Positions 10,932 to 27,738 of a stretch of 33,639 nucleotides of DNA are shown piece after piece (the first letter of the stretch is position 1; every line of letters starts with the position of its first letter). The notes beneath the pieces were generated by a model, which made no database searches, was not told the DNA's origin, and saw nothing but the letters and a program-made list of their open reading frames with translations. The DNA is from Gammaproteobacteria bacterium. Its GTDB lineage: Bacteria; Pseudomonadota; Gammaproteobacteria; GCA-001735895. The DNA lies in NCBI GenBank assembly GCA_029864185.1, contig JAOTTY010000007.1, positions 1 to 33,639 on the forward strand, read 5' to 3'. A program made the position numbers and the translations under genes.

Positions 10932-11919
10932 GGATTCTGCCCATCAGCCGCACGCGGCTGAGCCCTCCGTCCGGATAGATATTCAGGCGCACATGGCTGA
11001 CCCTGCCCAGGCTTTGCACCTCGTCGCCAAAGCGGTGTTCGCTATCCATCCGTAGTTTCTGCGGCGGCAACAACTCCTGCCAGAACTGGCTTTGGGTGAC
11101 GATCGAAGCGACCGTTCCGGCGCTGACCTGCGCCGCCTGCAGCGAGCAGCGCTCCGGGTAATTGCCCTTGAAATGCGCGGTATCGATGAGCACTTCGGCG
11201 ATTTCACCGGGATGCCCGAGCTCGATGATGCACCAGTCGTTGCCGGGTTCGCGCCGGCGCCGGGTTTCCCAGCCGTCGCCCATGTTGATGCCGCGGCCCG
11301 GGTTGAGCAGGTTCGCGGCGGCGCCGAAATGAGCGTCGTTCCAGGCGATCGCGCGGGCGCCAAGTTCGACCGCGGCCAGGTTTTGCGAGGCTTTCTTGTC
11401 GAGCGCATCGACGTCGCTGACCACCCTGCCGTGGATGCGTAAGCGCGCAATACCGCCATCCGGGTATATGTTCAGGCGTACGTGGCTGAAACAGCCCGCG
11501 TTTTCGATGGTGAAATAATGGTGGCTGTTGCCCTGCAGGCCGGTCGATTCGATCAGCGTGATCCAGTCGCTCGAATCGTCGGGCAGGCCGGCGCTGAAAC
11601 AGGCTTCCAGCGATGCCGCCGGCGGGTAGTTGCCGGTAAAGTGCGTGGTGTCGATATCGACTCCCTTGATTTCGCCGGGCAGGCCGAGCTTGACGATCGC
11701 ATGATCGTAGCCGCCGTCGCGACGCCGGCGTGTTTCCCAGCCGTCCATCCACTTGCCGTTGTCATCGAACTTGCCGTCGAGGAATACCGGTGCCGCGGGG
11801 CTGAGCATGCGGCTGCACTCGGCGAAAAAGTCGTCGCTGCAGGAAACGATTTTCGCGCCCAGACGCGGCTGCGCGAGATTGATCCAGCGATTGATGAAAT
11901 CGGGGGTTTGTTCAGTCAT
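10924..11919 (-). CDS. alc: Allantoicase
   Basis: Hydrolyses allantoate to ureidoglycolate and urea. The 331-residue protein contains two tandem allantoicase repeats, each marked by GWETRRRR (about residues 60 and 225) followed by LGxPGEI, a DT-HF motif and a GNYP motif. The longer reading frame starts upstream at 12000, but the ATG at 11919 has an AAGGAC ribosome site seven bases before it and gives the family N-terminus (FINRWINLAQPRLGAKIV). It begins inside the stop region of the deaminase remnant (8-nt overlap) and overlaps allA by 8 nt, so it probably depends on translational coupling at both ends. Confidence 0.95.
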   Translation of the reverse strand: MTEQTPDFINRWINLAQPRLGAKIVSCSDDFFAECSRMLSPAAPVFLDGKFDDNGKWMDGWETRRRRDGGYDHAIVKLGLPGEIKGVDIDTTHFTGNYPPAASLEACFSAGLPDDSSDWITLIESTGLQGNSHHYFTIENAGCFSHVRLNIYPDGGIARLRIHGRVVSDVDALDKKASQNLAAVELGARAIAWNDAHFGAAANLLNPGRGINMGDGWETRRRREPGNDWCIIELGHPGEIAEVLIDTAHFKGNYPERCSLQAAQVSAGTVASIVTQSQFWQELLPPQKLRMDSEHRFGDEVQSLGRVSHVRLNIYPDGGLSRVRLMGRIHG

Positions 11920-12277
11920 GATAGTGTCCTTTGCTTGCGGCCCGCTGCAGCAGCCGCGCCTGTTGATTATGTTGCTGCACCAGCGAGTCGAGATCAACAC
12001 CGACGATGTGCCCCTGCTCGATGACGATGCGGCCGTTGATCAGCGACAGCCAGGCGCTCGCCGGGGCGCAGGTCAGCAGAATCACGCCGCCCCCGGCATC
12101 GATATAACGCTCCGGCTCCGGCCCGGATGCCGCAATGCCGGCGCGAATTCCGCCGCTGCTGCTGCCGATCCGCCCGATCACGTGGTCACGAATCAGGATC
12201 GCCCCGTTACCGATTTCACGACACTCGCCATCCATGGTCACCGGCATCTCGGCATTGTCTATCGGCATTAGCGGCAC
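11912..12277 (-). pseudogene. Internally deleted remnant of an 8-oxoguanine deaminase (amidohydrolase)
   Basis: An open frame of 121 codons from GTG 12277. Residues 1 to about 66 resemble the N-terminus of 8-oxoguanine/hydroxyatrazine-type deaminases: a strand pattern around VTMDGECREIGNGAILIRD, then ERYIDAGGGVIL where the family has its IDA-x-G-x-VVLPG strand. Residues from about 68 resemble the family's extreme C-terminus (CAPASAWLSLINGRIVIEQG, then VDLDSLVQQHNQQARLL). The roughly 330 residues between, including the HxH metal site and all other catalytic ligands, are missing. The joint is in frame near 12072-12082. The stop codon overlaps the alc start by 8 nt. It cannot be an active deaminase. 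It may be a decaying gene kept for coupling, or a small beta-sandwich protein. Confidence 0.75.
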
Positions 12278-12305
12278 GCGATCTCCCGTCCGCGGCTTCT
12301 GGTCG

Positions 12306-12351
12306 GATCAAAAACTACGCGCTCAGGATCGTCGACCTGATCAAAAATTAC
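12306..12351. repeat. Short imperfect direct repeat between guaD and the deaminase remnant
   Basis: GATCAAAAACTAC (12306-12318) and GATCAAAAATTAC (12339-12351) match at 12 of 13 bases and are offset by 33 bases. They occupy the 97-nt gap after the guaD stop, one of the few non-coding spots in the operon. Function is unknown; it may be a duplication scar. Confidence 0.5.
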
Positions 12352-12374
12352 CGGGGGATGCGTAGGCGGTGGCA

Positions 12375-13706
12375 TCAGGTGTTGCGGGAGTACTGGCGCT
12401 TGCCCATGACATGGGTGGCCTGCACGCAGCGGTCGTCGCCGAGCATCATCAGCGCGAACAGGCGCTCCTCCAGCGTCGACGCGTTTTCCATGCGGCATTG
12501 CATCAGCTCGGTGGCGCCGAGATCGAGCACCACCAGGTCCGCCTCCTTGCCGACACCGAAGTTGCCGATCCTGTGATCGAGGTAGAGCGCCTGCGCCGCG
12601 CCCAGCGTCGCCAGGTAAAACGCCTTCAGCGGCGACAGTTGCTGGCCTGCCAGCTGGCAAACCTTGTAGGCCTCGGCGAGCGTCTGCAGCATGCTGAAAC
12701 TGGTGCCGGCGCCGACGTCGGTGGCGACCCCGACGCGGATACCCTGCTCGCGCGCATCGTCGAGGCTGAACAGGCCGCTGCCGAGAAACAGGTTCGAGGT
12801 CGGGCAGAACGCGATCGCGGCACCGCTCGCCGCCATGCGCTCGCGGTCCTGCCGATCGAGGTGAAGACAATGGCCGTAAATCGAGCGCGGACCCAGCAGG
12901 CCGAAGCTGTCGTAGACGTCGAGATAGCTGCGGCTATCGGGGAACAGCCTGGCCACCCAGTCGACCTCGTCGCGGTTTTCAGCCACATGCGACTGCAGGT
13001 ACAGGTCCGGCTGCTCGGCGAGCAGCTGGCCGCAGACCTCGAGCTGTGCCGGGCTCGAGCAGGGCGCGAATCGTGGCGTCACCGCGTAATGACAGCGCCC
13101 CTTCAGGTGCCAGCGCCTGATCAGTTCGGAGCAGTCACGGTAGCTCGACGCAGCGCTGTCGCAAAGCGCTTGCGGGGCGTTGCGATCCATCATGACCTTG
13201 CCCGCAACCAGGCACAGGTCGCGTTGCTGCGCCTGTTCGAAAATCGCGTCCACCGATTGCGCGTGCACGGTCGCGAAGACCGCGCCGCTGGTGGTGCCGT
13301 TGCGCAGCATTTGCTCACAGAAAAACGCGGCGATCCTGTCGGCATGCTCACGCTCGGCGAATTTCATCTCGGTGGGATAAGTGTATTGCCGCAGCCAGTC
13401 GAGCAGTTGCAGGCCGTGACTCGCGATCATTTCGGTTTGCGGGTAATGGGTATGGGTATCGATAAAACCGGGCATCACCAGCCGCCCGCTGTAATCATAC
13501 AGGCAGGAACCGTCGGGCAGGAAATCGATCCAGTCGGCGGCCGGCACCAGCTGCCGGACGCGACCCTGCTTCAGCAGCAGCAGGCCGTCCTCGATATATT
13601 CCACGGCGTCGCCGCTGTTGTCGGGATCGGACAGGAAATGCACGAAATCCGCGCGGATCGCGGTATCGCACGAATCATTGTCCAGCGGCGCGGGAACGAC
13701 CGACAT
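12375..13706 (-). CDS. guaD: Guanine deaminase
   Basis: Zinc amidohydrolase converting guanine to xanthine. The 443 residues match E. coli GuaD closely: metal ligands in GFIDTHTHYPQTEM (His85 and His87), VMMDRNAP, AVTPRFAPCSSP, QSHVAEN (His), YGHCLHL (His), FCPTSNLFLGSGLFSL and ATDVGAGTSFSMLQTLAEAY (Asp). GNFGVGKEADLVVLD closes the beta-sandwich. All expected residues are present, so it should be active. It starts 5 nt after puuD. It provides the guanine branch into xanthine for the XdhABC enzyme of the same operon. Confidence 0.97.
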   Translation of the reverse strand: MSVVPAPLDNDSCDTAIRADFVHFLSDPDNSGDAVEYIEDGLLLLKQGRVRQLVPAADWIDFLPDGSCLYDYSGRLVMPGFIDTHTHYPQTEMIASHGLQLLDWLRQYTYPTEMKFAEREHADRIAAFFCEQMLRNGTTSGAVFATVHAQSVDAIFEQAQQRDLCLVAGKVMMDRNAPQALCDSAASSYRDCSELIRRWHLKGRCHYAVTPRFAPCSSPAQLEVCGQLLAEQPDLYLQSHVAENRDEVDWVARLFPDSRSYLDVYDSFGLLGPRSIYGHCLHLDRQDRERMAASGAAIAFCPTSNLFLGSGLFSLDDAREQGIRVGVATDVGAGTSFSMLQTLAEAYKVCQLAGQQLSPLKAFYLATLGAAQALYLDHRIGNFGVGKEADLVVLDLGATELMQCRMENASTLEERLFALMMLGDDRCVQATHVMGKRQYSRNT

Positions 13707-13711
13707 CGCGA

Positions 13712-14902
13712 CTATTGCTGCTGCAGCTGCGCGTACCAGGCGGCGACGACGGCGCGTTCCGCATCGGTCATCCCGGTCAGGTTACCGATCGGCATGTAGC
13801 GGGACTGCACCGTGGTCGCGATGCGCGTGGCGTTAGTGGTAATCTGCTCGGGGGTTTCCATGACCAGGCCCAGAGGCGCTTCGGCAAAGCCGGGCTGGGT
13901 TGGATGGCTGGCGTGGCAGGCGACGCAACGGGTCGCGATAATCCCGGACACCCGCGCCGTGCTGACGTCGCCGCTGGTCGCCGTGTCGACCGCCTTCGGG
14001 CTCAGGTACCAGACCATCGATAGCAACAGCACGGCGGCTACCGCCGGCAGCGCCAGCTGCGCGCCGCCACCGTGGCGCTGCACGAAGTACTGCCTGATCA
14101 GGACGCCGGCGAGCATGATGAACACCAGCACCAGCCAGCCGTGTTGATGGCTGTAGGTCATCGGGTAATGATTGCTGATCATGATGAACAGCACCGGCAG
14201 CGTGAAATAAGTGTTGTGCACCGAGCGCTGCTTGCCGACGATGCCGGGTTCGGTATCCGGCGTTTCACCGGCGCGCATCTGCGCGACGATTCTCTTTTGC
14301 CCCGGGATGATATGAAAGAAGACGTTGGCCGCCATGATGGTACCCATCATGGCACCAACGTGCAGGTAGGCCGCGCGCGCGCTCAGCAGCTGAAACAGGC
14401 CCCAGGCCACCGCCGCGACGAGCACGAAAATAATCGATGCGAGCAGCACGTCGCTGCCCCGCAGCGCCCTGCACAGCATGTCATAGAAGATCCAGCCGGC
14501 GACGATAACGCCGAGGCTGATCGCGATCGCGCCCGTAACCGACAGGGGCATGACCCGGCTGTCGATCAGGTAGCTGCTGGCACCGAACCAGTAGACCACC
14601 ACCAGCAGCCCGAAACCCGACATCCAGGTGGTGTAGGCTTCCCATTTCGACCAGTGCAGGTGTTCCGACAGGGGTTCAGCCACCGGTCCCAGCAGAAATT
14701 TCTGGCTCTGGTATACGCCGCCACCATGCACCGCCCACAACTCGCCGGTAACGCCGCGCTCCGTATCCTGGGCACGCGCGGGCTTGCGCAGCGAGCTGTC
14801 GAGCATGACGAAATAAAACGACGCGCCGATCCAGGCCACGCCGGCGACAAAGTGCAGCCAGCGCAGCAACAGGTTGAGCCAGTCGAGCAGGTATGCTTCC
14901 AT
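13712..14902 (-). CDS. puuD: Membrane urate hydroxylase with C-terminal cytochrome c domain
   Basis: Oxidises urate to 5-hydroxyisourate in the inner membrane, passing electrons to the respiratory chain instead of making peroxide. The 396-residue protein has about eight to nine hydrophobic helices in residues 1-300 (e.g. RWLHFVAGVAWIGASFYFVM) carrying WAVHGGGVYQSQKF, FFHIIPGQKR and SVHNTYFTLPVLFIMISNHY, all PuuD hallmarks. A c-type cytochrome domain follows with CVACH (326-330) and a likely axial Met370 in RYMPIGNLTGMT. It fills the urate-oxidase slot of the operon, which has no soluble uricase or HpxO. The 60-nt gap after the binding protein gene shows no clear promoter. Confidence 0.96.
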   Translation of the reverse strand: MEAYLLDWLNLLLRWLHFVAGVAWIGASFYFVMLDSSLRKPARAQDTERGVTGELWAVHGGGVYQSQKFLLGPVAEPLSEHLHWSKWEAYTTWMSGFGLLVVVYWFGASSYLIDSRVMPLSVTGAIAISLGVIVAGWIFYDMLCRALRGSDVLLASIIFVLVAAVAWGLFQLLSARAAYLHVGAMMGTIMAANVFFHIIPGQKRIVAQMRAGETPDTEPGIVGKQRSVHNTYFTLPVLFIMISNHYPMTYSHQHGWLVLVFIMLAGVLIRQYFVQRHGGGAQLALPAVAAVLLLSMVWYLSPKAVDTATSGDVSTARVSGIIATRCVACHASHPTQPGFAEAPLGLVMETPEQITTNATRIATTVQSRYMPIGNLTGMTDAERAVVAAWYAQLQQQ

Positions 14903-14962: not shown

Positions 14963-16042
14963 CTAGTTGGGAATCTTGCTGACCACGCCCTGCAGGTAGT
15001 AATTCATCTTGTTGAGCTCATCGTCGGTCATGTTCTTACCGGCCGGGACGATGGTTTTTCCGCTCTGGTCGATCACCGGGCCGGCAAAGGGATGCAGCGT
15101 GCGCTCGGTCAGCTGCTTTTCCATATCCCTGATCCGATTCTGCAGATCTTCCGGGATCGCCTTGTTCATCGGCGCCAGCTTGATCATGCCACGCGGGTAG
15201 CCGCCCCAGACGCTGGTCGGCGTCCAGCTTCCGGCGAGTACTTCCTTGACCGTCTTGACGTAGTAATCGCCCCACAGGTGGGTGGTCGCGGTCAGATGCG
15301 CGTTCGGGCCATACTTGGACATGTCGGAGTGGTAACCAAAGGCGTAGATGCCTTCGTCCTCGGCGGTCTGCACCACCGCGGTCGAATCGGTATGGTGCGT
15401 GATCACGTCGGCGCCCTGCGATATCAGCGTCCCCGCCGCCTGGCGCTCCTTACCCGGGTCGTACCACGAGTTGACCCAGATCACGCGCAGCTCGGCCTTG
15501 GGATTGACGCTGCGTGCGCCCTTGATGAAGGCGTTGATGCCCTGCAGCACCTCGGGGATCGGAAACGCCGCGACGTAGCCGAGCACGTTCGATTTGGTCA
15601 TTTCACCGGCGATGACTCCCGTCAGATAGCGGCCTTCGTAAAAGCGCGCATTGACCAGCCCCATGTTCTTGCCGAGCTTGTAGCCCGTGACATGGACGAA
15701 GGCCGTTTTCGGAAAGCTTTTGGATACCTTGAGCATGTAGTTCATGTAACCGAAGCTGGTGGCAAAGATTACCTTGTCGCCGCGCTTGGCCATCTCGCGG
15801 ATCACGCGCTCGGCGTCGGCGCCCTCGGCAACATTCTCGACGTATTTCGTTGTCGCGCCGGTTTCCTGCTCGACCTGCAGGCGGCCGAGGTTGTGCTGGT
15901 AGGTCCAGCCGGCGTCGCCGATAGGGCTAACGTAAACGAAGCCGACGTTGTCGGCTGCCTGGCTGGCGCCGCCGAACATTACCGCCAGCGCGATGATCGC
16001 GGCCAGCGGCAGCCTGGTTATCAGTGTCTTTGTAACAGTCAT
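14963..16042 (-). CDS. BMP/PnrA-type ABC transporter substrate-binding protein
   Basis: Periplasmic binding protein of the BMP family, which bind nucleosides and related purines. An N-terminal export signal (about 1-29: LPLAAIIALAVMFGGASQA then AD) lacks a lipobox, so it should be soluble. The mature part has the family blocks VGFVYVSPIGDAGWTYQHN, ATSFGYMNYMLKVS, YEGRYLTGVIAGEMTKSNVLG and GADVITHHTDSTAVVQ. I chose the ATG at 16042 because a GGGAGGG ribosome site lies about 7 nt upstream; a TTG six bases earlier is less likely. It is the fourth gene of an importer cassette (ATPase, two permeases, binding protein) embedded in the purine operon. Substrate is inferred from context to be a purine, nucleoside or ureide. 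Confidence 0.92.
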   Translation of the reverse strand: MTVTKTLITRLPLAAIIALAVMFGGASQAADNVGFVYVSPIGDAGWTYQHNLGRLQVEQETGATTKYVENVAEGADAERVIREMAKRGDKVIFATSFGYMNYMLKVSKSFPKTAFVHVTGYKLGKNMGLVNARFYEGRYLTGVIAGEMTKSNVLGYVAAFPIPEVLQGINAFIKGARSVNPKAELRVIWVNSWYDPGKERQAAGTLISQGADVITHHTDSTAVVQTAEDEGIYAFGYHSDMSKYGPNAHLTATTHLWGDYYVKTVKEVLAGSWTPTSVWGGYPRGMIKLAPMNKAIPEDLQNRIRDMEKQLTERTLHPFAGPVIDQSGKTIVPAGKNMTDDELNKMNYYLQGVVSKIPN

Positions 16043-16127
16043 TGCCAAACCCTCCCGGGGTTATTGTTTCAAGTTAGTCTAGGGGTGTTGCTACCATGGT
16101 TATATGCCCTCGGTGATTAACCCTGGC

Positions 16128-17060
16128 TTAAGCTTCCGGCCTGAAGGGCTGCCCCAGCGAAACCGGCGCATTGAGGCGCACCGTGTTCTGGTCGCGCGAG
16201 ATGATCACCAGTACGATGATGGTCGCGAGGTAAGGCAGCGCCGACAGGAACTGCGACGGGATACTGATATCGAGATCCGAACCCTGCACGAATAGCTGCA
16301 CCACCATGACGCCGCCGAACAGGTAAGCACCGACCAGCACCCGGAACGGTCTCCAGGTGGCGAAAACGACCAGCGCGATCGCGATCCAGCCGCGCCCCGC
16401 GACCATGCCCTCGACCCACAGCGGCGTATAAAAAACCGACAGGAAGGATCCGCCGATGCCGGCCATCGCGCCGCCGAAAATAGTCGCGAGGTAACGGATG
16501 CGGATCGCGTGATACCCGATCGAATGCGCGGACGTCGGCGACTCGCCTACCGCGCGCAGCACCAGCCCGGGGCGGCTGCGATATAGAAACCAGACGATAC
16601 CAGCGAACAGTAGCCACGAAAAATAGACCAGCGCCTGCTGGTTGAACAGCGCTGCACCGATGACCGGTAAATCGGCCAGCAGCGGGATCCGTATCGCGCC
16701 CACGGTCGGCAGTATTTCCGACTCGTAGGGTTTGCCGATAAACGCCGACAGGCCGACACCGAGAATCGATAACGCGAGGCCGCTGGCGACCTGGTTGCCC
16801 AGCAGCGTCAGCACGACGATCGCGAAAATGAACGACATCGCGGCGCCGGCCGCCATTCCGGCGAGCACGCCGAGCCAGGGATTGCCGCTGTGCAGCGTGA
16901 CCGCGAATCCGGCGATCGCGCCCATCGCCATCATGCCCTCGGCGCCGAGATTGAGCACGCCCGATTTCTCGGCGATCAGCTGCCCCAGCGCGACGATGAT
17001 CAGCGGCGTGCCCGCGACCACGGTCGCGAACAATATCGAGCTGACGATAGACCCGTCCAT
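16128..17060 (-). CDS. ABC transporter permease (nucleoside/purine type), second subunit
   Basis: Integral membrane permease of 310 residues (BPD_transp_2 family, as in NupQ/YufQ and RbsC). It has about eight to ten hydrophobic segments and the family motif LIAEKSGVLNLGAEGMMAMGAIAGF near residue 30, then GYHAIRIRYLATIFGGAMAGIGG, the cytoplasmic ATPase-coupling loop. It starts at the ATG that shares one base with the stop of the preceding permease (TGATG, 17060), so the two are translated together. The gap to the binding-protein gene downstream is 85 nt. Confidence 0.92.
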   Translation of the reverse strand: MDGSIVSSILFATVVAGTPLIIVALGQLIAEKSGVLNLGAEGMMAMGAIAGFAVTLHSGNPWLGVLAGMAAGAAMSFIFAIVVLTLLGNQVASGLALSILGVGLSAFIGKPYESEILPTVGAIRIPLLADLPVIGAALFNQQALVYFSWLLFAGIVWFLYRSRPGLVLRAVGESPTSAHSIGYHAIRIRYLATIFGGAMAGIGGSFLSVFYTPLWVEGMVAGRGWIAIALVVFATWRPFRVLVGAYLFGGVMVVQLFVQGSDLDISIPSQFLSALPYLATIIVLVIISRDQNTVRLNAPVSLGQPFRPEA

Positions 17061-18127
17061 CAGGCCAGCGCCTCCTTCCAGCGTATACGGTAGTTGATGA
17101 ACACATCGGAGCCGAGCAGGAACATCAGCAACATGCCCTGGAACACGTTCGAGATCGACGACGGCAGATTCAGGTACTGCTGCGCCTGTTCGCCGCCGAG
17201 GTATAGCAGGGCCATCAACAGGCTGGCGAAGAAGATGCCGACCGGGTTCAGGCGCGCGACGAAGGCGACGATGATCGCGGCAAAACCGTAGTTATTGGAG
17301 ACATGGTCGGTGATCTGGCCCATCGGCCCGGCGACCTCGGACATGCCGGCGATCCCCGCCATCGCGCCGCCGCTCATCAAACCGATCCAGATCATGCGCT
17401 TCGCCGAAAAACCGGCGTAGCGCGCGGCGTCCTTCGCGTAGCCCGCGACCTGCATCTGGAAACCCGCAAAACTGCGGAACATGAAAACATAGCCGACCAG
17501 CAATGCGCCCAGCGCGAACATGAAGGCGATATTGAGGCGCGTGCCCTCGACCAGGATGGGCAGCAGCGCCGAATCCTCGAACAGCCGCGATTGCGGGAAG
17601 TTGAAGCCGTCCGGATCCATCATCGGGCCGTGCACCAGCCACGACACCAGCAGCTGCGCGACGTAGACCAGCATCAGCGACACCAGGATTTCATTGGTGT
17701 TGAAAACGGTTTTCAGCAGGGCCGGGATAGCCGCCCACAGCATGCCGCCGATACCGCCGGCGATCACCATCAGGACCAGTACGTGCGCGCCACCTTCCGA
17801 GCCGTAAAAATACAGTGCGATAGCGCTGGCGCAGACGGCGCCGACGATGAGCTGCCCCTCGGCGCCGATATTCCAGACGTTGGCGCGAAATCCTACCGCG
17901 AGTCCGATCGCGCACAGCATCAGTGGCGTCGCTTTCAGCAATAGCTCGGATAAGCCGTACAGGTCGCTGATCGGGTTGATGAAAAACACCGTGAAACCCT
18001 CGATCGGGTTCTTGCCCAGAAAAGTGAACAGCAGCAGGCCGCCGACCAGCATCAACAGCACCGCGATCAGCGGCGATGCGTAGGACATCGCCAGCGAAGC
18101 CTCGGGGCGCCGCTCCAGCCTAAGCAT
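17060..18127 (-). CDS. ABC transporter permease (nucleoside/purine type), first subunit
   Basis: Membrane permease of 355 residues pairing with the next gene. It has about nine to ten hydrophobic segments, with the family blocks GFRANVWNIGAEGQLIVGA near residue 80 and KRMIWIGLMSGGAMAGIAGM, the coupling loop. The reading frame is open to 18169, but the ATG at 18127 is the sensible start. It overlaps the ATPase stop by 8 nt (ATGCTTAG) and the skipped upstream residues are Arg- and Pro-rich, unlike the family. Confidence 0.92.
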   Translation of the reverse strand: MLRLERRPEASLAMSYASPLIAVLLMLVGGLLLFTFLGKNPIEGFTVFFINPISDLYGLSELLLKATPLMLCAIGLAVGFRANVWNIGAEGQLIVGAVCASAIALYFYGSEGGAHVLVLMVIAGGIGGMLWAAIPALLKTVFNTNEILVSLMLVYVAQLLVSWLVHGPMMDPDGFNFPQSRLFEDSALLPILVEGTRLNIAFMFALGALLVGYVFMFRSFAGFQMQVAGYAKDAARYAGFSAKRMIWIGLMSGGAMAGIAGMSEVAGPMGQITDHVSNNYGFAAIIVAFVARLNPVGIFFASLLMALLYLGGEQAQQYLNLPSSISNVFQGMLLMFLLGSDVFINYRIRWKEALA

Positions 18128-19676
18128 GCGCCTGCGCTCCGGCGGCCGGGGCCCGCTCCCACATGCCACTCATCCACACCCCGATTTCATCGATACTGGT
18201 ATCGGCGAGCTGTCTGGCAGGCGACATCCGGCCGTTGGCGATGACCGCGATGCGGTCGGAAATCTCGAACAGCTCCTCGAGTTCTTCCGAGATCACCAGG
18301 ATCGCGGTGCCGTCGTTGCGCAGGTCGATCAGGCGCTGACGGATAAACGCGGCGGCGCCGACGTCGACGCCCCAGGTGGGTTGCGCGACCACCAGCATCT
18401 TCGGCGCCAGCAAGATCTCCCTGCCCATGATGAACTTCTGCAGGTTGCCGCCCGACAGCGAGTTGGCGGCGTGCTCTTCACCGCCGCACTTGACGTTGAA
18501 GTCGTCGATACAGCGGCGCGCAAACTGCGCAACGCGGTCGAACTGGATCATGCCGCGCCTGAGCATGCCGGCATGATGCGCGGTCAGCAACGCGTTTTCG
18601 GTCAGCGACATGCGCGGTACCGCGCCGCGACCGAGGCGCTCCTCGGGCACGAATCCCATGCCGTTGCGGCGGCGCTGATCGGGCAGGTCGCGCCCCGAGG
18701 GCTTACCGCAAATGACGATCGCGTCGGCGTCGGTGACGGGTTTTTCGCCCGACAACGCGTACAGGAGTTCCTGCTGGCCGTTGCCGGACACGCCGGCGAT
18801 GCCGAGGATTTCGCCGGAACGAACCTCGAGCTCGATCTCCTGCAAATCGGTGCCGAAAGGATCGTCCGACGGCTTCGACAAGCGCCTGAGCTGCAGGCGC
18901 ACCTCGCCCAGCTCGACCGGCGCATCGTGTTCCGGCACCGGCAGTTCCTTGCCGATCATCAGGCTCGCCATCGACTTCGGCGTTTCCTCGGAGGGGATGC
19001 AATGACCGGTTACCTTGCCGTCGCGCAGCACCGTGGCGACGTGGCACAGTTCCTGAATTTCGTCGAGCTTGTGGCTGATGTAGAGGATGCTGCAGCCTTC
19101 CGCGGCAAGCTGGCGCAGCGTATCGAACAGCTTGCGTACCGCCTGCGGCGTCAGCACCGAGGTCGGCTCGTCCATGATCAGCAGCCTCGGGTTCTGCAGC
19201 AAGCAGCGAATGATTTCGACGCGCTGGCGCTCGCCCACCGACAGCGCGTGTACCAGGCGCTGCGGATCGACCGGCAGCCCGTAGCGATTCGACACCTCGG
19301 TAATCTCGCCCGCCAGCTGCTTCAGGTCCTGCCTGCCGGGTAGCGCCAGTGCGACATTTTCGACGACGTTCAGCGTCTCGAACAGCGAAAAATGCTGGAA
19401 AACCATGCCGATGCCAAGACTGCGCGCATGCGCGGGATTGTCGACATGAACCAGCTCGCCTTCCCACTTCATCTTTCCGGCGTCGGGTTTGGCGACGCCA
19501 TAGATCATTTTCATCAGGGTCGATTTTCCGGCGCCGTTTTCCCCTAAAACGGCGTGGATCTCGCCTTTCCTGACGGTCAGCGAAACGTCCTCGTTGGCGA
19601 TGACCGACGGATAGATCTTGGTGATGCCCTCGAGTTCGAGCCGTAACCCGTTGACGCCATCCTGCGCGGATGTCAT
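18120..19676 (-). CDS. ABC transporter ATP-binding protein, tandem type (purine/nucleoside importer)
   Basis: Energises the importer. The 518 residues form two ATPase domains. The first has Walker A GENGAGKST (45-53), signature LSVGERQRVEI and Walker B LLIMDEPTS. The second has the relaxed Walker A of this subfamily (GIAGVSGNGQQEL), signature LSGGNLQKFIMGRE and VVAQPTWGVDVGA, where the usual Walker B aspartate-glutamate pair is replaced; both changes are normal for RbsA/NupO-like proteins. The ATG at 19676 has a GGGGGGAG ribosome site and overlaps the xdhC stop by 4 nt (ATGA). The ATP site that works is probably only the first. Confidence 0.94.
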   Translation of the reverse strand: MTSAQDGVNGLRLELEGITKIYPSVIANEDVSLTVRKGEIHAVLGENGAGKSTLMKMIYGVAKPDAGKMKWEGELVHVDNPAHARSLGIGMVFQHFSLFETLNVVENVALALPGRQDLKQLAGEITEVSNRYGLPVDPQRLVHALSVGERQRVEIIRCLLQNPRLLIMDEPTSVLTPQAVRKLFDTLRQLAAEGCSILYISHKLDEIQELCHVATVLRDGKVTGHCIPSEETPKSMASLMIGKELPVPEHDAPVELGEVRLQLRRLSKPSDDPFGTDLQEIELEVRSGEILGIAGVSGNGQQELLYALSGEKPVTDADAIVICGKPSGRDLPDQRRRNGMGFVPEERLGRGAVPRMSLTENALLTAHHAGMLRRGMIQFDRVAQFARRCIDDFNVKCGGEEHAANSLSGGNLQKFIMGREILLAPKMLVVAQPTWGVDVGAAAFIRQRLIDLRNDGTAILVISEELEELFEISDRIAVIANGRMSPARQLADTSIDEIGVWMSGMWERAPAAGAQAHA

Positions 19677-20524
19677 GTTCTCCCCCCAATGCAACCGGTA
19701 ACTTTATTATTGGTTTGTTTCTGGTTATGCGCCCGATCGTATACCTGCAGGATTTCGGCGGCAACCGAAATCGCGATCTGTGCCGGCTGCTTGCCGTCGA
19801 TGCCGCGGATTCCGATCGGGCAGGTCATACGCGCGAACTTTTTCGGATCGACGCCGCGGCGCCGCATGCGCGTTTCGAAATTGCGGCGCTTGTTGCGCGA
19901 GCCGATCAGGCCGAAATAGATAAAATCGTCGCGTTGCAGTATCTGCTCGCAGAGGCGCTGATCGAGCCCGTGGTCGTGGCTCATGACGAGGAAACAGGCG
20001 CCGGCCGGGGCGGCGTCGATTTCCGCCTCGGGCGTGTCGGTACAAACCGTCGTCACTCCTGGCGGCGGCTTTTGCGGCAGCATGTCGTCGCGCGTATCGA
20101 TCCAGCGAATATCGACAGGCAGGTCCCGCAGCACGCGCACCAGCGCGCGGCCGACGTGACCGGCGCCGAACAGGTACAGGTCGATCGCGCCCTCGTCGAT
20201 CGCCGCCCTGCCCCAGTCGCTGTGCCCGTCCAGCCTTTCGAACATCAGGTTTACCAGCCCGCCGCAACACTGGCCGAGGCCGGCGCCGAGCGGAAAACGC
20301 CGCAGCCCGCCGTCTTCGCCGGCCTCGAGCTGGTTGCGCGCGATGCGGCAGGCCTGGTACTCGAGGTTACCGCCGCCGATCGTGCCGTAGAGCCGATCCG
20401 CGGTCACGATCATTTTTGCGCCGGGCTCGCGCGGGGTCGAGCCGACGATCGAATCGACGCTGACCAGCACCGCCGCTGTGCCGGCGCGGCGCAGCGACTC
20501 GAGCGTTTGCTGCCAGTCGCTCAT
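19673..20524 (-). CDS. xdhC: Xanthine dehydrogenase maturation factor XdhC
   Basis: Accessory protein that binds molybdenum cofactor, aids its sulfuration and inserts it into XdhB; not part of the mature enzyme. The 283-residue protein has the N-terminal XdhC/CoxI domain with SVDSIVGSTPREPGAKMIV, GTIGGGNLEYQ and the conserved cysteines of GLGQCCGGLVNLMFE (about residues 81-95). A C-terminal Rossmann domain has LYLFGAGHVGRALVR and YFGLIGSRNKRRNFE. It overlaps xdhB by 4 nt (ATGA) and the ABC ATPase gene by 4 nt, placing enzyme maturation and transport in one coupled transcript. Confidence 0.96.
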   Translation of the reverse strand: MSDWQQTLESLRRAGTAAVLVSVDSIVGSTPREPGAKMIVTADRLYGTIGGGNLEYQACRIARNQLEAGEDGGLRRFPLGAGLGQCCGGLVNLMFERLDGHSDWGRAAIDEGAIDLYLFGAGHVGRALVRVLRDLPVDIRWIDTRDDMLPQKPPPGVTTVCTDTPEAEIDAAPAGACFLVMSHDHGLDQRLCEQILQRDDFIYFGLIGSRNKRRNFETRMRRRGVDPKKFARMTCPIGIRGIDGKQPAQIAISVAAEILQVYDRAHNQKQTNNKVTGCIGGRT

Positions 20525-22841
20525 GCGACCCCCGCGCGCACCGCATCGATCGCGTCGAGGATCGCTTCCGGGGTCGCCGGCGCGCGCAACGGCGGATTGA
20601 TGCGATTACCGGCGAGGCTGGCGATCGCGTCGCGAATCGCGAAAAACACCGAGAAGGGCAGCAACAGGGGCGGCTCGCCGACGGCCTTGGAGCGCATTAT
20701 CGTATCCCTGGCGTTGGGATTCTGGTAGAGCCGCGTATGGAAGCTGACCGGGCAATCGGCAACGGTCGGAATCTTGTAGGTCGATGGCGCGTGCGTGGTC
20801 AGCCTGCCGCGCTCGTCCCAGCACAATTCCTCGCTGGTCAACCAGCCCATGCCCTGGATATAGGCGCCTTCGACCTGGCCGATATCGATCGCGGGATTGA
20901 TCGAGTTGCCGGCGTCGTGCAGGATGTCGGCGCGCAGCAGCCTGAATTCACCGGTCAGCGTATCGACGACCACTTCGGATACCGCGGCGCCGTAGGCGAA
21001 ATAATAAAACGGGCTGCCCTGCATCCTGTCACGATCCCAGTTCAGTCCCGGGGTCTTGTAGAAGCCGTCTGACCAGAGTTGCACGCGGTTTTCGTAAGCC
21101 TCCACGACCAGCTCCGTGAACGACATTTCGGTGCCCGCGCAGCTGACCACGTCGTCCGCGAAACAAACCTCGTCCGGCGCGGCGCCGAACTTGTCGGCGA
21201 CAAACTCCGCCAGCCGGTTGCGGATCTGGCGCGCGGCGTCCTGTGCTGCCTTGCCGTTCAGATCGCTGCCGGTCGACGCCGCGGTGGCGGAGGTATTGGC
21301 GACCTTGCTGGTGTCGTTTGCGGTCGCGCGCACCCGCGCGAGACCGATGCCGAGTTCGAGCGCAACCACCTGCGATACCTTGGTATGCAGGCCCTGACCC
21401 ATCTCGGTGCCGCCGTGGTTTACCAGCACGCTGCCGTCGGTATAGACGTGCACCAGCGCCCCTGCCTGATTGAAATGGACGACGTTGAAGGAGATCCCGA
21501 ACTTGACCGGGGTCAGCGCCAGCCCCCTGCGCAACACCGGGTTATCGCGATTGAACTCCATGACCGCGTCGCGTCGCGCGTAGTAGTCGCTGCTTTGTTC
21601 GAGTTCGGCCACCAGTTCGTGGATGACGTTGTCCTCGACGAGCTGCCCGTAAGGCGTGGTGTTGCGGAAGTCGTTGTCGTAGAAATTGAGCTTGCGCACC
21701 TGCTGCGGGTCCTTGCCGAGCTCGCGCGCGATATTATCGATGATGTACTCGATCGCAAACGCGCCCTGCGGGCCGCCGAAACCACGAAAGGCGGTGTTCG
21801 ACTGCGTGTTGGTTTTCACACTGAGTGCGTCGATCGCGACGTCGCCGAGGTAATAGGCATTGTCGAATGGCAGACCGCGCGCGTCACCACCGGCCCAGTC
21901 AGGTCCGCCGAAAACCCCGCCTGTGCGGCCATCTCGATTTTTACCGCCTGGATCAGGCCCTCGTTGTCGTAACCGACCTCGTACTCGAAGTCGAAACCGT
22001 GACGCTTGCCGGTGATCATCATGTCGTCGTCGCGGTCTAGCCGCAGCTTGACCGGGCAGTTCAGCCGAAAGGCGGCGACGGCGGCGATGCAGGCGAATAT
22101 CGCCGATTGCGATTCCTTGCCGCCGAAGCCACCGCCCATGCGGCGCATTTCCACCACGACCTGGTTGAAATCAAGCCCCAGCGCGTGCGCGACGACGTGC
22201 TGCATTTCGGTCGGGTGCTGGGTCGAGCACCACAGGTGAAAACAACCGTCTTCCTTGGGCGCGACGTAGGAAATCTGGCCTTCGAGATAAAACTGTTCCT
22301 GCCCGCCGACGGAAATCTCGCCTTTCATACTGCGTTGCGCCTGCGCCAGCGCCTTGTCGGCATCGCCGCGGCGCAGCCGCATCGGCGGCAACACCCAGGA
22401 CTGTTGGCGTTTGCCGTCGGCGATATCGAGGATCGCCGGCAGCACCTCGTAGTCGATCCGCGCCAGCCTTGCGGCCTTGCGCGCCGCCGTTTGCGAGTCC
22501 GCGACCACCGCGAATATCGGTTGCCCGATATATTGAACCAGTCCGTCGGCGAGGATCGGGTCGTCGGCGAGGATCGGTCCGCAATCGTTACGACCCGGGA
22601 TATCGGCCGCGGTGATCACCGCGACTACGCCCGGCGCCGACCTGACGGCCTCCAGATCGACGCAGCGTATATTCGCATGCGCCTGCTCGCTCAGCCCGAG
22701 CGCGATGTAACGGGTGCCGGCAAGCTCGGGGATGTCGTCGACGTAGGCCGCTTCACCGGCAACGTGCAGCGCCGCCGATTCGTGCGCCACCGAGTTTCCC
22801 GGTGCCGTCTCGCGCGCCTGCTGCCTGGTTCGGTCTTCCAT
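20521..22841 (-). pseudogene. xdhB: Xanthine dehydrogenase molybdopterin subunit, split by a single-base frameshift
   Basis: Molybdopterin subunit that hydroxylates hypoxanthine and xanthine. Two frames carry it: 22841-21816 (341 codons; MRRMGGGFGGKESQSA) and 21819-20521 (FRGFGGPQGAFAIEYI and SKAVGEPPLLLPF, which hold cofactor-binding residues and the catalytic Glu). Frame one is family-like through FSADLTGPVVTRAVCH and then breaks. The other frame resumes with DNAYYLGDVAIDALSVKTNT. Adding one base between CATTC and GACAAT (plus-strand 21861-21868) would restore a 773-residue XdhB, the expected length. The 3' frame has only a GTG with no ribosome site, so it is probably not made separately. 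Every other operon member looks intact, so either this is a recent mutation or a sequencing/assembly error. It overlaps xdhA by one base. Confidence 0.88.
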
Positions 22842-24295
22842 CAGTCGCTAACCGCAAACACGCTGACAGCGCTCGCATCGAGCGCCTGCCCGGGTCGGGT
22901 TTCGAGGTAAAAACGATGCAGCAGGTTGGCAGTGGTGCGCGCGCGGTATGCGGCGCTGGCGCGCATGTCGGAAAGCGGTGTGAAATCCTCGCCCAGTTTT
23001 TGCATCGCGGTAACCATCGTGGGCTCGTCCCAGCGCTCGCCAGCCAGGTAGGCCTCGGTCAGGCGGGCGCGTTTCGGTATCGCCGCCATGCCACCCAGCG
23101 CGATACGGATCTCCGCCACGACGCCGCCATCGAGGCGCATCGCAAAGGCCGCGCAGACCGCGGAGATGTCCTGGTCGTAGCGCTTGCTGAGCTTGTAGCA
23201 ACGCACCTGCATATCGCGACGCGGTAACGGAACCCGGATCGCCTCGATGAATTCGCCCGGTTGCAGCGCGTTTTTCATGTAGTCCAGATACAGTTCCTCG
23301 AGCGCAAGCTCACGCTTAGCGTCGCCGCGGCGTAACCGCACCCGGGTATCGATCGCGATCAGCGCCGGCATCGAATCGCCGATCGGCGAGCCGTTGGCGA
23401 CGTTGCCGACCAGCGTGCCGGCGTTGCGTACCGGGATCGACGCGAAGCGGCGAAACATTTCACCGAACTCGGGGTAGTGTTCCGCGAGCGCGTCGAAGGC
23501 GTCGGCGAGCGTTACCGCGGCGCCGATCTCGATGCCATCGGCCCCGACTCTGACTTGTCTCAAGGCATCGATATTGCCCAGGTAAACGATCGCGGGCAGT
23601 TCGCGCAATTGCTTGGTGACCCACAGACCCACATCGGTGCCTCCCGCCAGTAACTGCGCATCCGGATTATCGTGGTAGTACGCTGCGAGTTCATCGATCG
23701 TCAAAGGTGCGAAGTAGCTCGCCTGCCGATGCCTTAGCGACAGGCTCTGCTCGCGCCGCAGCCCGCGCAACTGCGCGATCAATTTCTGTACGTCCGGCCT
23801 GACCACGGGATACTCGTGCATGTGCAGGCAGGCATCGATGATCGGCCGATAACCGGTGCAGCGGCACAGGTTGCCGGACAACGCGTCGTCGATCTCAACG
23901 CGCGACGGCCTCTTGCGATGCTGGTACAGAGCAAACATCGACATGATGAATCCGGGGGTACAGAAACCGCACTGCGAGCCGTGATGATCGACCATGCTTT
24001 GCTGCACCGGGTGCAGGCTGCCATCGGCCGCCTTCAGCGATTCGACCGTGAACAGCGCCTTGCCGTCGAGCGTCGGCAGAAACTGGATGCAGGCGTTGAC
24101 CGCGCGGTAGCGCAGCCCATCGCCGTCGAGTTCGGCGACGACCACGGTGCAGGCGCCGCAATCCCCCTCGGCGCAACCTTCCTTGCTGCCGACGCGGCGC
24201 AGGTCCTCGCGCAGGTACTGCAGTACGGTGCGGGTGGGATCGAAATCGGCGATTTCGATCTTTTTACCGTCGAGCAGGAATCTCACGCGATCCAC
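22841..24295 (-). CDS. xdhA: Xanthine dehydrogenase small subunit (2Fe-2S and FAD)
   Basis: Carries electrons from the molybdenum site to NAD. The 484 residues include a plant-type ferredoxin domain with cysteines in GCAEGDCGACTVV (41, 46, 49) and NACIQFLP (69). The second [2Fe-2S] domain has SQCGFCTPGF (109, 112) and GNLCRCTGYRPI (144, 146). An FAD domain follows with QLLAGGTDVGLWVT and RNAGTLVGNVANGSPIGDSM, then a C-terminal CO_deh_flav domain. All cluster ligands are present. It lies 42 nt after uraH and its TGA shares a base with the xdhB ATG (TGATG). Confidence 0.97.
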   Translation of the reverse strand: MDRVRFLLDGKKIEIADFDPTRTVLQYLREDLRRVGSKEGCAEGDCGACTVVVAELDGDGLRYRAVNACIQFLPTLDGKALFTVESLKAADGSLHPVQQSMVDHHGSQCGFCTPGFIMSMFALYQHRKRPSRVEIDDALSGNLCRCTGYRPIIDACLHMHEYPVVRPDVQKLIAQLRGLRREQSLSLRHRQASYFAPLTIDELAAYYHDNPDAQLLAGGTDVGLWVTKQLRELPAIVYLGNIDALRQVRVGADGIEIGAAVTLADAFDALAEHYPEFGEMFRRFASIPVRNAGTLVGNVANGSPIGDSMPALIAIDTRVRLRRGDAKRELALEELYLDYMKNALQPGEFIEAIRVPLPRRDMQVRCYKLSKRYDQDISAVCAAFAMRLDGGVVAEIRIALGGMAAIPKRARLTEAYLAGERWDEPTMVTAMQKLGEDFTPLSDMRASAAYRARTTANLLHRFYLETRPGQALDASAVSVFAVSD

Positions 24296-24337: not shown

Positions 24338-24688
24338 TCAACTGCCCCGGTAGGTCGAATAGCTCCACGGCGAGACCAAGAGCGGCACGTGGTAGTGCTG
24401 GTTGGCGTCGGCGATGCCGAAGCGGATGACGACCTCGTCGACAAACGGGGGCTCTGGCAACTCGTCATGGCGAGCGCGGAAATAATCGCCGGCCTGGAAC
24501 ACGAGTTCGTAAACGCCGCTGGCGAAGGCCGCGTCGTCGAGCAGCGGCGAGTCGAGGCGTCCGTCGGCGTTGGTACTGACCTCGGCGATGAGCCTGCGTT
24601 CGGGGCGCAGGCTGAACAACGCCACGCCAACGCCGCTGGCGGGGCAGCCCGCCGCGGTGTCGAGTACGTGTGTAGTTAGCCTCCCCAT
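24338..24688 (-). CDS. uraH: 5-hydroxyisourate hydrolase (transthyretin-like)
   Basis: Opens 5-hydroxyisourate to OHCU after PuuD. The 116-residue protein ends in the family's diagnostic tetrapeptide YRGS (WSYSTYRGS). It starts with MGRLTTHVLDTAAGCPASG, where His of THVLD is catalytic, and also has TNADGRLDSPLL (Arg) and NQHYHVPLLVSPWSYS (His). The frame is open to 24745, but the ATG at 24688 gives the family start with an AGGGG about 9 nt upstream. No signal peptide is present, so it is cytoplasmic. It is the first gene of the long minus-strand purine operon; the operator pair lies 50-83 nt upstream. Confidence 0.96.
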   Translation of the reverse strand: MGRLTTHVLDTAAGCPASGVGVALFSLRPERRLIAEVSTNADGRLDSPLLDDAAFASGVYELVFQAGDYFRARHDELPEPPFVDEVVIRFGIADANQHYHVPLLVSPWSYSTYRGS

Positions 24689-24737
24689 CTGCAACACCCC
24701 TCTTCGTCGATGCGCTAAAATCGCACTAAAAGTAAGA

Positions 24738-24779
24738 ATTGTCAACAGTTTGTTAAAATATTGTTAACAATTTGATAAT
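24738..24779. promoter_or_regulatory. Divergent promoter region with paired operators for the purine cluster
   Basis: Two palindrome half-pairs, ATTGTCAACAGT (24738-24749) and ATTGTTAACAAT (24760-24771), lie 22 bases apart, two helical turns. On the minus strand the first contains a perfect -35 TTGACA (24745-24740) facing uraH, though the -10 17 bases on is weak (GATTTT). On the plus strand GATAAT (24774-24779) is a good -10 for the regulator gene. The second palindrome overlaps its -35 region. Binding of the GntR protein here would control both directions at once (inference). Confidence 0.6.
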
Positions 24780-24812: not shown

Positions 24813-25541
24813 ATGCGAGACATGCCAGCGCAAATCGAAAAAACCGCCAGCGGGAGTCTCAGCGAAGACGACGTGCTGCGCCAGATCGAGCAGGCTGTGC
24901 TCGATCACCGGTTACCGCCGGGGACCAAGTTGAAGGAGGTCCAGTTGGCAAACCTGTTCGGCGTAAAGCGTGGAATGATCCGTAAGGTCCTGACCCGCCT
25001 CGCTCACTCCAGGCTCGTCGACCAGACTCCAAATCGCGGGGCGACCGTTGCGAGACCCTCGGTAAAGGAAGGCCAGGACCTGTTCGCGGCACGGCGCGCA
25101 ATCGAATCCGCCATCCTCGAAACACTGATCGCGCGCTGCGACGAACAGATGCTTTCCCGGTTGCGCAAAATGCTGGAGCGCGAAGCAAAAGCCTACCGGC
25201 GCGGCGATTCGGAAAAGGCGCTTGCGCTCTCGGTCGATTTCCACCGCCAGCTGGCCGCGCTCGCCGGAAACGGCGTGCTCGAGGCTTTCCTCAACGATAT
25301 CATTCGCCGCACTCCGCTGGTGATCCTTACCCATCTCGGCGACGACGAGCAGAACCGCTGCCGCAATCGCGAACATGCCGAAATCGTCGAGGCGATCGAA
25401 CGGCGCGATACGCGCCGGGCGGTCAAGGTCATGCACCAGCACCTGCTGCATATCGAGAGCAAGATAAGGCACAAGCCCGAGGCGCGAAAGGCCGACCTGG
25501 CAACGCTGCTGCGCCAGCAACCCGAAGCGGCGGCGACTTGA
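24813..25541 (+). CDS. GntR-family (FCD subfamily) regulator of the purine/urate cluster
   Basis: Repressor-type protein of 242 residues. The winged helix-turn-helix (about 20-75) reads LRQIEQAVLDHRLPPGTKLK then LFGVKRGMIRKVLTRL, with the recognition helix unlike the usual RxxVREAL pattern at one side. The FCD domain (about 90-225) contains SVDFHRQLAALAGN and RNREHAEIVEAIERRDTRR, carrying likely metal-site His residues. It diverges from uraH across the operator pair and heads puuE-uraD, which it overlaps by 4 nt (TTGA), so it most likely senses a pathway intermediate. ATG 24813 and ATG 24822 are both possible starts. Confidence 0.88.
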   Translation: MRDMPAQIEKTASGSLSEDDVLRQIEQAVLDHRLPPGTKLKEVQLANLFGVKRGMIRKVLTRLAHSRLVDQTPNRGATVARPSVKEGQDLFAARRAIESAILETLIARCDEQMLSRLRKMLEREAKAYRRGDSEKALALSVDFHRQLAALAGNGVLEAFLNDIIRRTPLVILTHLGDDEQNRCRNREHAEIVEAIERRDTRRAVKVMHQHLLHIESKIRHKPEARKADLATLLRQQPEAAAT

Positions 25542-26461
25542 ACGACTATCCGCGCGACATGATCGGTTATGGCGGCAGCCCGCCGCATGCGCAATGGCCC
25601 GGTCGGGCACGCATCGCGCTGCAGTTCGTACTCAACTACGAAGAAGGCGGCGAGAGCAGCGTGCTGCACGGCGATCCGGGATCGGAGCGCTTCCTCTCGG
25701 AAATCATCGGCGCGGAGAGTTACGCGGCGCGCCACATGAGCATGGAATCGGTTTACGAATACGGTTCGCGCGCGGGTGTATGGCGGCTGCTGCGCGAATT
25801 CGGCGCGCGTGGCCTGCCGCTAACGGTATTCGCGGTGGCGATGGCGTTGCAGCGGCATCCCGAACTCGCCACCGAACTCGCCGGCCTGGGCCACGAAATC
25901 GCCTGCCACGGGTTGCGCTGGATCCATTACCAGAACGTGGACCAGGCGATCGAACGCGAGCACATGGAACAGGCGCTGGAGATCATCGAGGGCCTGACCG
26001 GCATCGCGCCGCAGGGCTGGTACACCGGGCGCGATTCCCCCAACACGCGCCGGCTGGTGGTGGAACAGGGTTCGCTGTTGTACGACTCCGACTACTACGG
26101 CGACGACCTGCCGCTGTGGACCCCGGTCACGACCGAAAGTGGCAGCCGCAGGATGCACCTGGTGATTCCCTATACGTTGGACGCGAACGACATGCGCTTC
26201 GCCACCGCGCAGGGTTTCAACAGCGGCGAACAGTTTTATCGATACCTCTGCGACAGCTTCGACGTGCTCTACGCGGAAGGCGACGAAGCGCCGAAAATGA
26301 TGTCGGTTGGCCTGCATTGCCGCCTGGTAGGCAGGCCGGGGCGTTTCCGCGCGCTGCAGCGCTTCCTCGACCACGTGCAGTCGCACGACCGGGTCTGGAT
26401 CTGCCGGCGCGTCGATATCGCGCGCCACTGGATGGAGCGGCATCCGCCGCGCAGCGCGTGA
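25538..26461 (+). CDS. puuE: Allantoinase, cofactor-independent PuuE type
   Basis: Hydrolyses allantoin to allantoate. A polysaccharide-deacetylase-fold protein of 307 residues that replaces the zinc amidohydrolase AllB. Diagnostic stretches are YPRDMIGYGGSPPHAQWPG at the start, LQFVLNYEEGGESSVLHGD, EIACHGLRWIHYQNV, GWYTGRDSPNTRRL and DSDYYGDDLPLW. I take the TTG at 25538 as the start: it gives the family N-terminus (NDYPRDMIGYGG) and overlaps the regulator's TGA by 4 nt. The next ATG (25559) would cut conserved residues. Confidence 0.96.
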   Translation: MNDYPRDMIGYGGSPPHAQWPGRARIALQFVLNYEEGGESSVLHGDPGSERFLSEIIGAESYAARHMSMESVYEYGSRAGVWRLLREFGARGLPLTVFAVAMALQRHPELATELAGLGHEIACHGLRWIHYQNVDQAIEREHMEQALEIIEGLTGIAPQGWYTGRDSPNTRRLVVEQGSLLYDSDYYGDDLPLWTPVTTESGSRRMHLVIPYTLDANDMRFATAQGFNSGEQFYRYLCDSFDVLYAEGDEAPKMMSVGLHCRLVGRPGRFRALQRFLDHVQSHDRVWICRRVDIARHWMERHPPRSA

Positions 26462-26468
26462 GCCGGTC

Positions 26469-26981
26469 ATGGGCGTAGGCATCGACGAAATCAATAATTG
26501 CAGCCAGGCCCGCTTCATCGAGCTGCTCGGCGCGGTTTTCGAGCATTCACCCTGGGTCCCCGAGCAGGTTTATGCACAGCGCCCATTCGGCTCGCGCGAC
26601 GACTTGCACCAGGCCATGGTCGACGCGGTCGGGCGCGCGACCGAAGAAAACCGCAGGGCCTTGCTGTGCAGTCACCCCGAGCTTGCCGGCACGGAAGCCG
26701 CATCCGGCACGCTGACCGACGCGTCGCGGCGCGAACAGGCGGGCGCCGGGCTCGACCAGTGCAGCGCGGACGAACTGCGCCGCCTGCAAACGCTGAACCG
26801 GGCCTATCGCGAGCGCTTCGGTTTCCCGTTCATCATCGCCGTGACCGGACTCGACAGGCACCAGATCCTCGCCGCGCTGGAGCGCCGGCTCGGCAATGAC
26901 GCCGCGCAGGAATTCGATACCGCGCTCGGCGAAGTCGACAAGATAGCGCGCATTCGTATCGACAAGCTGATCGATGAGTAG
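26469..26981 (+). CDS. uraD: OHCU decarboxylase
   Basis: Decarboxylates 2-oxo-4-hydroxy-4-carboxy-5-ureidoimidazoline to (S)-allantoin, keeping the stereochemistry needed downstream. The 170-residue helical protein has the catalytic His in LLCSHPELAG (His69), the family opening INNCSQARFIELLGAVFEHSPW, and LQTLNRAYRERFGFPFIIAVTG. The C-terminus RIRIDKLI is typical of the family. It lies 7 nt after puuE and overlaps the next gene by 8 nt, so the UDG-like protein downstream is translationally coupled to it. Confidence 0.96.
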   Translation: MGVGIDEINNCSQARFIELLGAVFEHSPWVPEQVYAQRPFGSRDDLHQAMVDAVGRATEENRRALLCSHPELAGTEAASGTLTDASRREQAGAGLDQCSADELRRLQTLNRAYRERFGFPFIIAVTGLDRHQILAALERRLGNDAAQEFDTALGEVDKIARIRIDKLIDE

Positions 26982-27738
26982 TATCGATACGCTGATCGGT
27001 CGATCCGGCGCGCACGACGAATGGAAAGGAATTCTCGAGGCGTCGCTGGCCAGGCTCGATCCCGCTTACCTCGAATCGCTGCTGCGGGACGACAGCTGGC
27101 TACCGGGCCCCGATCGCCTGCTCGCCGCTTTCCGGCGGGATCGCACGGGCCTGCGCTACCTGCTGATCGGTGAATCGCCCTACCCGCGCCGCGAGTCGGC
27201 AAACGGCATTGCGTTCTTCGACGCCGCGGTCGACCAGCTGTGGAGTGCAACGGGTTTGAGCAAGGCTGTCAATCGCGCCACGTCGCTGCGCAACATCGTC
27301 AAGACGGCGCTGCTGGCCGAGGGCCGTCTGGGCCGGGATGCGACCGGCAAAATCACGCAACCGGCAATTGCCGCGCTCGACAAGCGCGCAATGGTCCAGT
27401 CACTACCGGGGCTATTCGACAACCTGGAGCGTGCCGGCTTCCTGATGTTGAACGCGACCCCGGTGCTGCACCCCCTGCGCAAGCCGGCGGTCGAGGCGCG
27501 CTGCTGGCAGGAATTCCTTTCACGCCTGCTGGAACTGATCGCGCACCAGACGGAGCATCGGGTCACGCTGCTGCTGTGGGGCAGGATCGCTAACCTGGTC
27601 GAGGCGATGCCGGCCAGCCGGCGCCTCACCCGCCTGGTCTGCGAGCACCCCTACAACGTCTCGTTTATCGACAATCCCGATATGCTGCGCCTGTTTGCGA
27701 AGCTCCGGATCCTCGGACGTCATACGACCGACAAATAG
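26974..27738 (+). CDS. Uracil-DNA-glycosylase-fold protein of unknown function
   Basis: A 254-residue protein whose motifs fall in the order and spacing of family 1 UDG (Ung): YLLIGESPYPRRESANGIAF (63-81) for the water-activating loop, FLMLN (156-160) for the strand ending in the uracil-reading Asn, LLLWGRIAN (199-207), and CEHPYNVSF (223-231) for the HPSPLS loop with its His225. The Asp of GQDPYHG, which activates water in Ung, is replaced by Ser68; the preceding Glu67 recalls the GEAPG motif of family 4/5 enzymes. The DNA-intercalating Leu loop after the second His is also altered. It overlaps uraD by 8 nt and ends the divergent purine operon. It could be a divergent glycosylase, or a non-DNA protein using a UDG fold to bind a pyrimidine- or ureide-like ligand. 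The fold call is good; function is unknown. Confidence 0.72.
   Translation: MSSIDTLIGRSGAHDEWKGILEASLARLDPAYLESLLRDDSWLPGPDRLLAAFRRDRTGLRYLLIGESPYPRRESANGIAFFDAAVDQLWSATGLSKAVNRATSLRNIVKTALLAEGRLGRDATGKITQPAIAALDKRAMVQSLPGLFDNLERAGFLMLNATPVLHPLRKPAVEARCWQEFLSRLLELIAHQTEHRVTLLLWGRIANLVEAMPASRRLTRLVCEHPYNVSFIDNPDMLRLFAKLRILGRHTTDK

Follow-up and report, generated by a model that had tools for sequence, protein, structure and literature searches.

A probable DNA-repair glycosylase of the Nitratifractor-UNG type, with Glu-Ser in motif 1, encoded behind uraD in a gammaproteobacterial urate locus

The window, the whole 33,639-nucleotide stretch of gammaproteobacterial DNA that was analysed, carries a set of urate-catabolism genes together with a gene for a protein of the uracil-DNA glycosylase (UDG) superfamily. 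The latter comes at the end of a compact series of genes in the order gntR, puuE, uraD, glycosylase. The features of the locus are as follows:

10434..14902, minus strand: urate oxidase (Urate_ox_N), guanine deaminase, allantoicase and ureidoglycolate lyase
14963..19694, minus strand: ABC transporter (BMP-type substrate-binding protein, permeases and ATPase), adjoining the purine genes
20521..24295, minus strand: xdhA and xdhB, xanthine dehydrogenase, with xdhB frameshifted
24338..24745, minus strand: hiuH, 5-hydroxyisourate hydrolase of the transthyretin family (PF00576), divergent
24813..25541, plus strand: gntR, GntR/FCD-type regulator, first gene of the run, overlapping puuE by 4 nt
25538..26461, plus strand: puuE, allantoinase (TIGR03212, 1.6e-153)
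26469..26981, plus strand: uraD, OHCU decarboxylase (TIGR03164, 1.3e-58)
26974..26981, plus strand: 8-nt overlap of uraD and the glycosylase gene, which starts inside the last uraD codons
26974..27738, plus strand: UDG-superfamily glycosylase of the Nitratifractor-UNG type, 254 aa, with motif 1 GESPYPR
27169..27189, plus strand: motif 1 GESPYPR, residues 66-72, with invariant Glu67, and Ser68 at the Ung Asp position
27214..27216, plus strand: Phe81, at the base-stacking position (role assigned by analogy with Ung and UdgX); identical in all 100 homologues
27451..27453, plus strand: Asn160, at the position for uracil recognition; identical in all 100 homologues
27643..27657, plus strand: EHPYN, residues 224-228, with invariant His225; the Ung counterpart is HPSP

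The uraD and puuE assignments are firm, and the overlap with uraD described in an earlier note on this DNA is real. Candidates for the steps of the purine route are all present, even with the glycosylase left aside. On the 3' side of the glycosylase gene lies a TAXI-TRAP transporter, preceded by promoter-like sites (consensus matches only). The xdhB gene (20521-22841, minus strand) is divided between two reading frames, with a break near 21816-21870, and occupies one frame in five relatives; either the frameshift is genuine or it stems from an error in assembling this contig. Elsewhere in the window, a 425-aa open reading frame at 504-1781 (plus strand) is without a Pfam or NCBIfam match.

The UDG fold proposed in the earlier note is borne out both by profile and by structure. 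The 254-aa protein matches PF03167, the Pfam UDG family, with E=1.1e-7, which exceeds the gathering score, and a predicted structure superposes on UDGs; profile match and fold together place the protein in the UDG superfamily. The AlphaFold model has a pLDDT of 87 and a pTM of 0.85, with low confidence in the loop at residues 75-81, beside motif 1. Canonical Ung models give matches below cut-off only (TIGR00628, 39.3 bits against a cut-off of 185.75). The closest solved protein is 5X3G/5X3H, named in the structure library as the UNG of Nitratifractor salsuginis (phmmer 7.4e-47, residues 5-247, 39% identity), and this is also the best structural match of the model (Z 30.7, rmsd 1.7 Å over 245 residues), compared to Z 14-16 for canonical Ungs. 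The Nitratifractor enzyme acts on uracil and is insensitive to Ugi. The window gene is under purifying selection, with dN/dS of about 0.11-0.27 (Nei-Gojobori) against and among close homologues; since GESPYPR is also invariant in the window's family, neither gene nor motif is a product of chance.

All the Ung-like motifs that had been read from the sequence are confirmed: GESPYPR and EHPYN as listed above, ANGIAF at residues 76-81, FLMLN at 156-160 and LLLWG at 199-203. In an alignment to solved Ungs, E67-S68 fall on Gln-Asp, which puts Ser68 at the Asp position with Glu67 beside it, as the note had stated; this pattern is found clade-wide and is not private to the window gene. None of 100 aligned proteobacterial homologues has the motif-1 Asp; they come from the window's family, a second family (f72), the Legionella order, a single genus in another class, and additional gammaproteobacteria. 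Residue 67 is Glu in all 100, residue 68 is Ser in 69 and Gly in 31, and Pro69, Tyr70, Pro71, Arg72, Phe81, Asn160, His225 and Pro226 are unvaried. (Three 'GWLPGPD' entries in the motif counts are an artefact of the search pattern.) Only four columns of this alignment are at least 97% conserved but unlike the Nitratifractor UNG, E67 among them. In Ung, the Tyr of motif 1 (Tyr70 here) narrows the pocket for pyrimidines, while textbooks give the Asp as the catalytic residue of family 1; activity in the window protein could therefore be low or its specificity different. Going by the aligned residues, the clade appears to carry a family-4-like motif 1 inside a family-1-like protein.

What does the position behind uraD signify? 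In the window's family, 35 of 41 genomes have the glycosylase gene, and uraD is immediately upstream in 27 of the 34 testable ones, i.e. the carriers less G028, in which the gene lies at a contig end. Seven genomes break the link. In G003, G007 and G019, uraD was not detected and an ABC transporter lies beside the gene, along with xdhA remnants in G007; in G014 the gene directly follows gntR, with xdhA nearby and uraD/puuE on another contig; in G032 it faces guanine deaminase. In G037 (locus L029) and G040 (L025), the gene comes after queE, of the 7-deazaguanine pathway, and not after uraD. Because genomes of this family without uraD still have the gene, it persists when uraD is lost. Mapped on the tree, the uraD-neighbour label requires eight changes.

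Other lineages have other neighbours. In the Legionella order, so named because the Legionella adelaidensis plasmid copy groups inside the clade on the tree, ubiG is directly downstream in all 30 loci fetched. The gene abuts or overlaps ubiG in every one of these loci (L114-L143), so that the two are coupled just as closely as the glycosylase and uraD are in the window. In the second family, 20 of 31 loci have uvrB upstream in the same orientation, and radA and ylqF take this place in one locus each; at locus L087 (2361-3735) the homologue is flanked by uvrB on one side and on the other by a series of genes among which is the one for the XTP/dITP diphosphatase RdgB. None of the window's urate genes was matched near the homologues examined outside the window's family. 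The earlier note had named a lack of association with purine genes across genomes as the finding that would tell against it; such a lack is what is seen outside the window's family, while inside the family the association is there. Its suggestion of a housekeeping enzyme carried along is supported. We infer that the gene's occurrence behind uraD reflects operon organisation in a single bacterial family and is not the sign of a ureide role.

The gene is common in some groups and rare elsewhere. Carriers make up 116 of 140 genomes in the Legionella order and 99 of 116 in the second family, compared to 5 of 398 in a phylum-wide draw (window's genome included) and 4 of 385 in the class of G123. 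A scan of genome contigs for the gene returned close relatives only. No homologue was found in the phages searched, and plasmids yielded one clear homologue, that of L. adelaidensis; the Nitratifractor protein gave weaker plasmid matches.

Canonical Ung, called by TIGR00628 above cut-off, was not found in 33 sampled carriers of several families, nor in 21 more. In the Legionella order, it is present in 5 of 116 carriers versus 16 of 24 non-carriers (Fisher p=2.5e-11, by a test that ignores kinship); gene and Ung thus exclude each other there largely, although partially. Carrier and non-carrier states occur side by side inside the genera g548 and g551 of this order and g511 and g543 of the second family. 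The signal is weak in the second family, where Ung was found in just 2 of the 12 non-carriers tested and the other 10 are without it, and in the window's family no Ung was found in carriers or in the six non-carriers tested. Among Legionella-order genomes at least 97% complete, the gene occurs with a family-4-like gene in 72, without Ung or family 4 in 13 and with Ung in 4, while 8 have Ung alone, 3 have family 4 alone, and none is without all three. 'Family-4-like' here denotes any gene other than canonical Ung that matches PF03167 strongly (E below about 1e-22), with a TIGR00758 check in few genomes; since PF03167 overlooks many members of the clade, other divergent UDGs may also go undetected. 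Ung and the family-4-like gene nearly exclude each other in this order too (G081, G948-G1086), both being present in 2 of 21 Ung carriers, and the pattern between gene and Ung may therefore partly stem from that exclusion. Other glycosylase genes are present in the window's genome itself: one of family 4, divided between two contigs, another that is family 4/5-like with the motif GLAPG, and one for a hypoxanthine-DNA glycosylase (TIGR04274).

The idea that non-carriers have a canonical ung at the locus where carriers have the gene was considered and rejected. Queries with ubiG, uraD, puuE, gntR, xdhA, ylqF, queE and the transporter ATPase gave no tblastn match in ten ung regions (up to about 2.5 kb on each side), so replacement does not seem to have occurred in place.

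Taken together, the window protein is probably a uracil-DNA glycosylase of DNA repair that belongs to the family-1-like, Nitratifractor-type clade, overlaps in function with Ung and works without its Asp, and its linkage to uraD is probably an operon habit of the lineage. A repair glycosylase of this kind would account for the fold, the retained pocket, the replacement pattern and the uvrB and radA neighbours. Those DNA-repair neighbours count in favour of a repair role; ubiG and uraD are uninformative in this respect. The clade seems able to replace standard Ung. Weighing against exclusion as support for this are the five genomes that have both genes and the non-carriers of the second family and the window's family, which mostly or all are without Ung. 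The protein would be active on uracil. The base would be flipped out of the DNA and the uracil bound via Asn160, Phe81 and the motif-1 backbone, with His225 stabilizing the departing uracil anion. Glu67, as in family 4 (GE[A/G]P), may assume the electrostatic or water-positioning work of the Asp. Through its operon position after uraD, the glycosylase would presumably be expressed together with the purine genes.

Loss of the motif-1 Asp, and the acceptance of either Ser or Gly at position 68, might instead point to a DNA-binding or regulatory protein without glycosylase activity, such as a damage sensor. However, all other pocket residues are invariant, as is a Glu67 that looks compensating; in family 4 enzymes, Ala or Gly in this place is compatible with function (PMC10359453); and the partial exclusion with Ung suggests a common function. 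We consider a regulatory role unlikely. A different substrate is conceivable as well: a lineage-specialised DNA glycosylase for products of purine deamination or oxidation (xanthine, hypoxanthine, 8-oxoguanine) would for that reason be co-expressed with purine catabolism, or, in a version restricted to the window's family, the Asp-less enzyme would handle base damage from high purine flux or from the peroxide of urate catabolism. Other UDG families do excise hypoxanthine or xanthine (PMC8307549), and the idea stays alive because the window's family retains the gene among purine genes even without uraD beside it (G014, G007, G003, G019, G032). On the other hand, relatives elsewhere with GESPY or GEGPY have the same pocket residues but no purine neighbours, Tyr70 never varies, the genome already has its hypoxanthine-DNA glycosylase, and location is the sole pointer to oxidised or deaminated purines. 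The general form of this proposal appears quite improbable, and the version for the window's family has a comparably small chance of being right.

The earlier note had also entertained a UDG-fold hydrolase for nucleosides or ureides, which would here belong to the urate pathway. The one argument for this is that the gene lies directly behind uraD and that the two are kept as neighbours in the window's family, but each step already has its candidate (xdh, urate oxidase, hiuH, uraD, puuE, allantoicase, ureidoglycolate lyase), homologues with the same site lie beside ubiG, uvrB or radA with no urate genes nearby, and in the window's family the gene outlasts uraD. Neither such a hydrolase nor another enzyme tied to urate chemistry is supported, and we regard the hydrolase as very improbable.

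The superfamily as such is already known, and RefSeq labels one member of the clade a 'uracil-DNA glycosylase family protein'. A full-text literature search for GESPY/GEGPY returned nothing on UDGs, and no paper was found that joins a UDG with uraD and allantoin, or that deals with the GE[S/G]PY clade, of which an earlier description is possible (Li 2017 and Lucas-Lledo 2011 lay outside the search). Most sampled genomes of two bacterial families harbor a member of a clade in which the rest of the Ung-like site is retained, with Glu-Ser or Glu-Gly for Gln-Asp, and which in the Legionella order occurs where Ung is missing. If active, these proteins would be a natural experiment on a family-1-like UDG that works without the Asp, with a motif like that of family 4, and would explain how species without Ung and family 4 handle uracil in DNA. 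They also call for caution in deriving function from operon position, since the uraD, ubiG or uvrB neighbour varies by lineage.

How does the window protein compare with the known types? With canonical family 1 Ung it has in common the fold, the Phe, Asn and His of the pocket and the Tyr of motif 1; unlike Ung, it has no motif-1 Asp and has EHPYN in place of HPSPLS, and it shows neither GQDPY with the catalytic Asp nor a TIGR00628 score at the cut-off. The likeness to family 4 UDGa, whose motif is GE[A/G]P (PMC10359453; PMC10776899), lies in motif 1, with Glu at the Ung Gln and a small residue at the Ung Asp (PMC10359453). Family 4, however, has Gly after the motif Pro (GE(A/G)PG) where the window protein has Tyr, and with two Cys only, the window protein does not have the four-Cys 4Fe-4S ligand set; TIGR00758, the family 4 model, gave no match to it. 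UdgX, in which the motif-1 Glu adds to uracil excision (PMC10359453; PMC10776899), is defined by a GEQPG motif and a KRRIH loop with the cross-linking His (PMC10359453), both absent from the 254-aa sequence. L. adelaidensis WP_058461681.1, the member labelled in RefSeq, has GESPYPR and 41% identity to the window protein; ubiG follows its gene, there is no link to urate genes, and the record reports no function. The Nitratifractor salsuginis UNG (5X3G, 5X3H; Li et al.) has in common with the window protein whole-length homology, the Tyr/Phe/Asn/His pocket and EHPYN. It retains Gln-Asp in motif 1 (GQDPYPR), whereas in the proteobacterial clade of the window protein this pair is Glu-Ser or Glu-Gly; with E67-S68 in place of Gln-Asp, the window protein is thus a variant and not a standard member of this unconventional, Nitratifractor-type branch of family 1.
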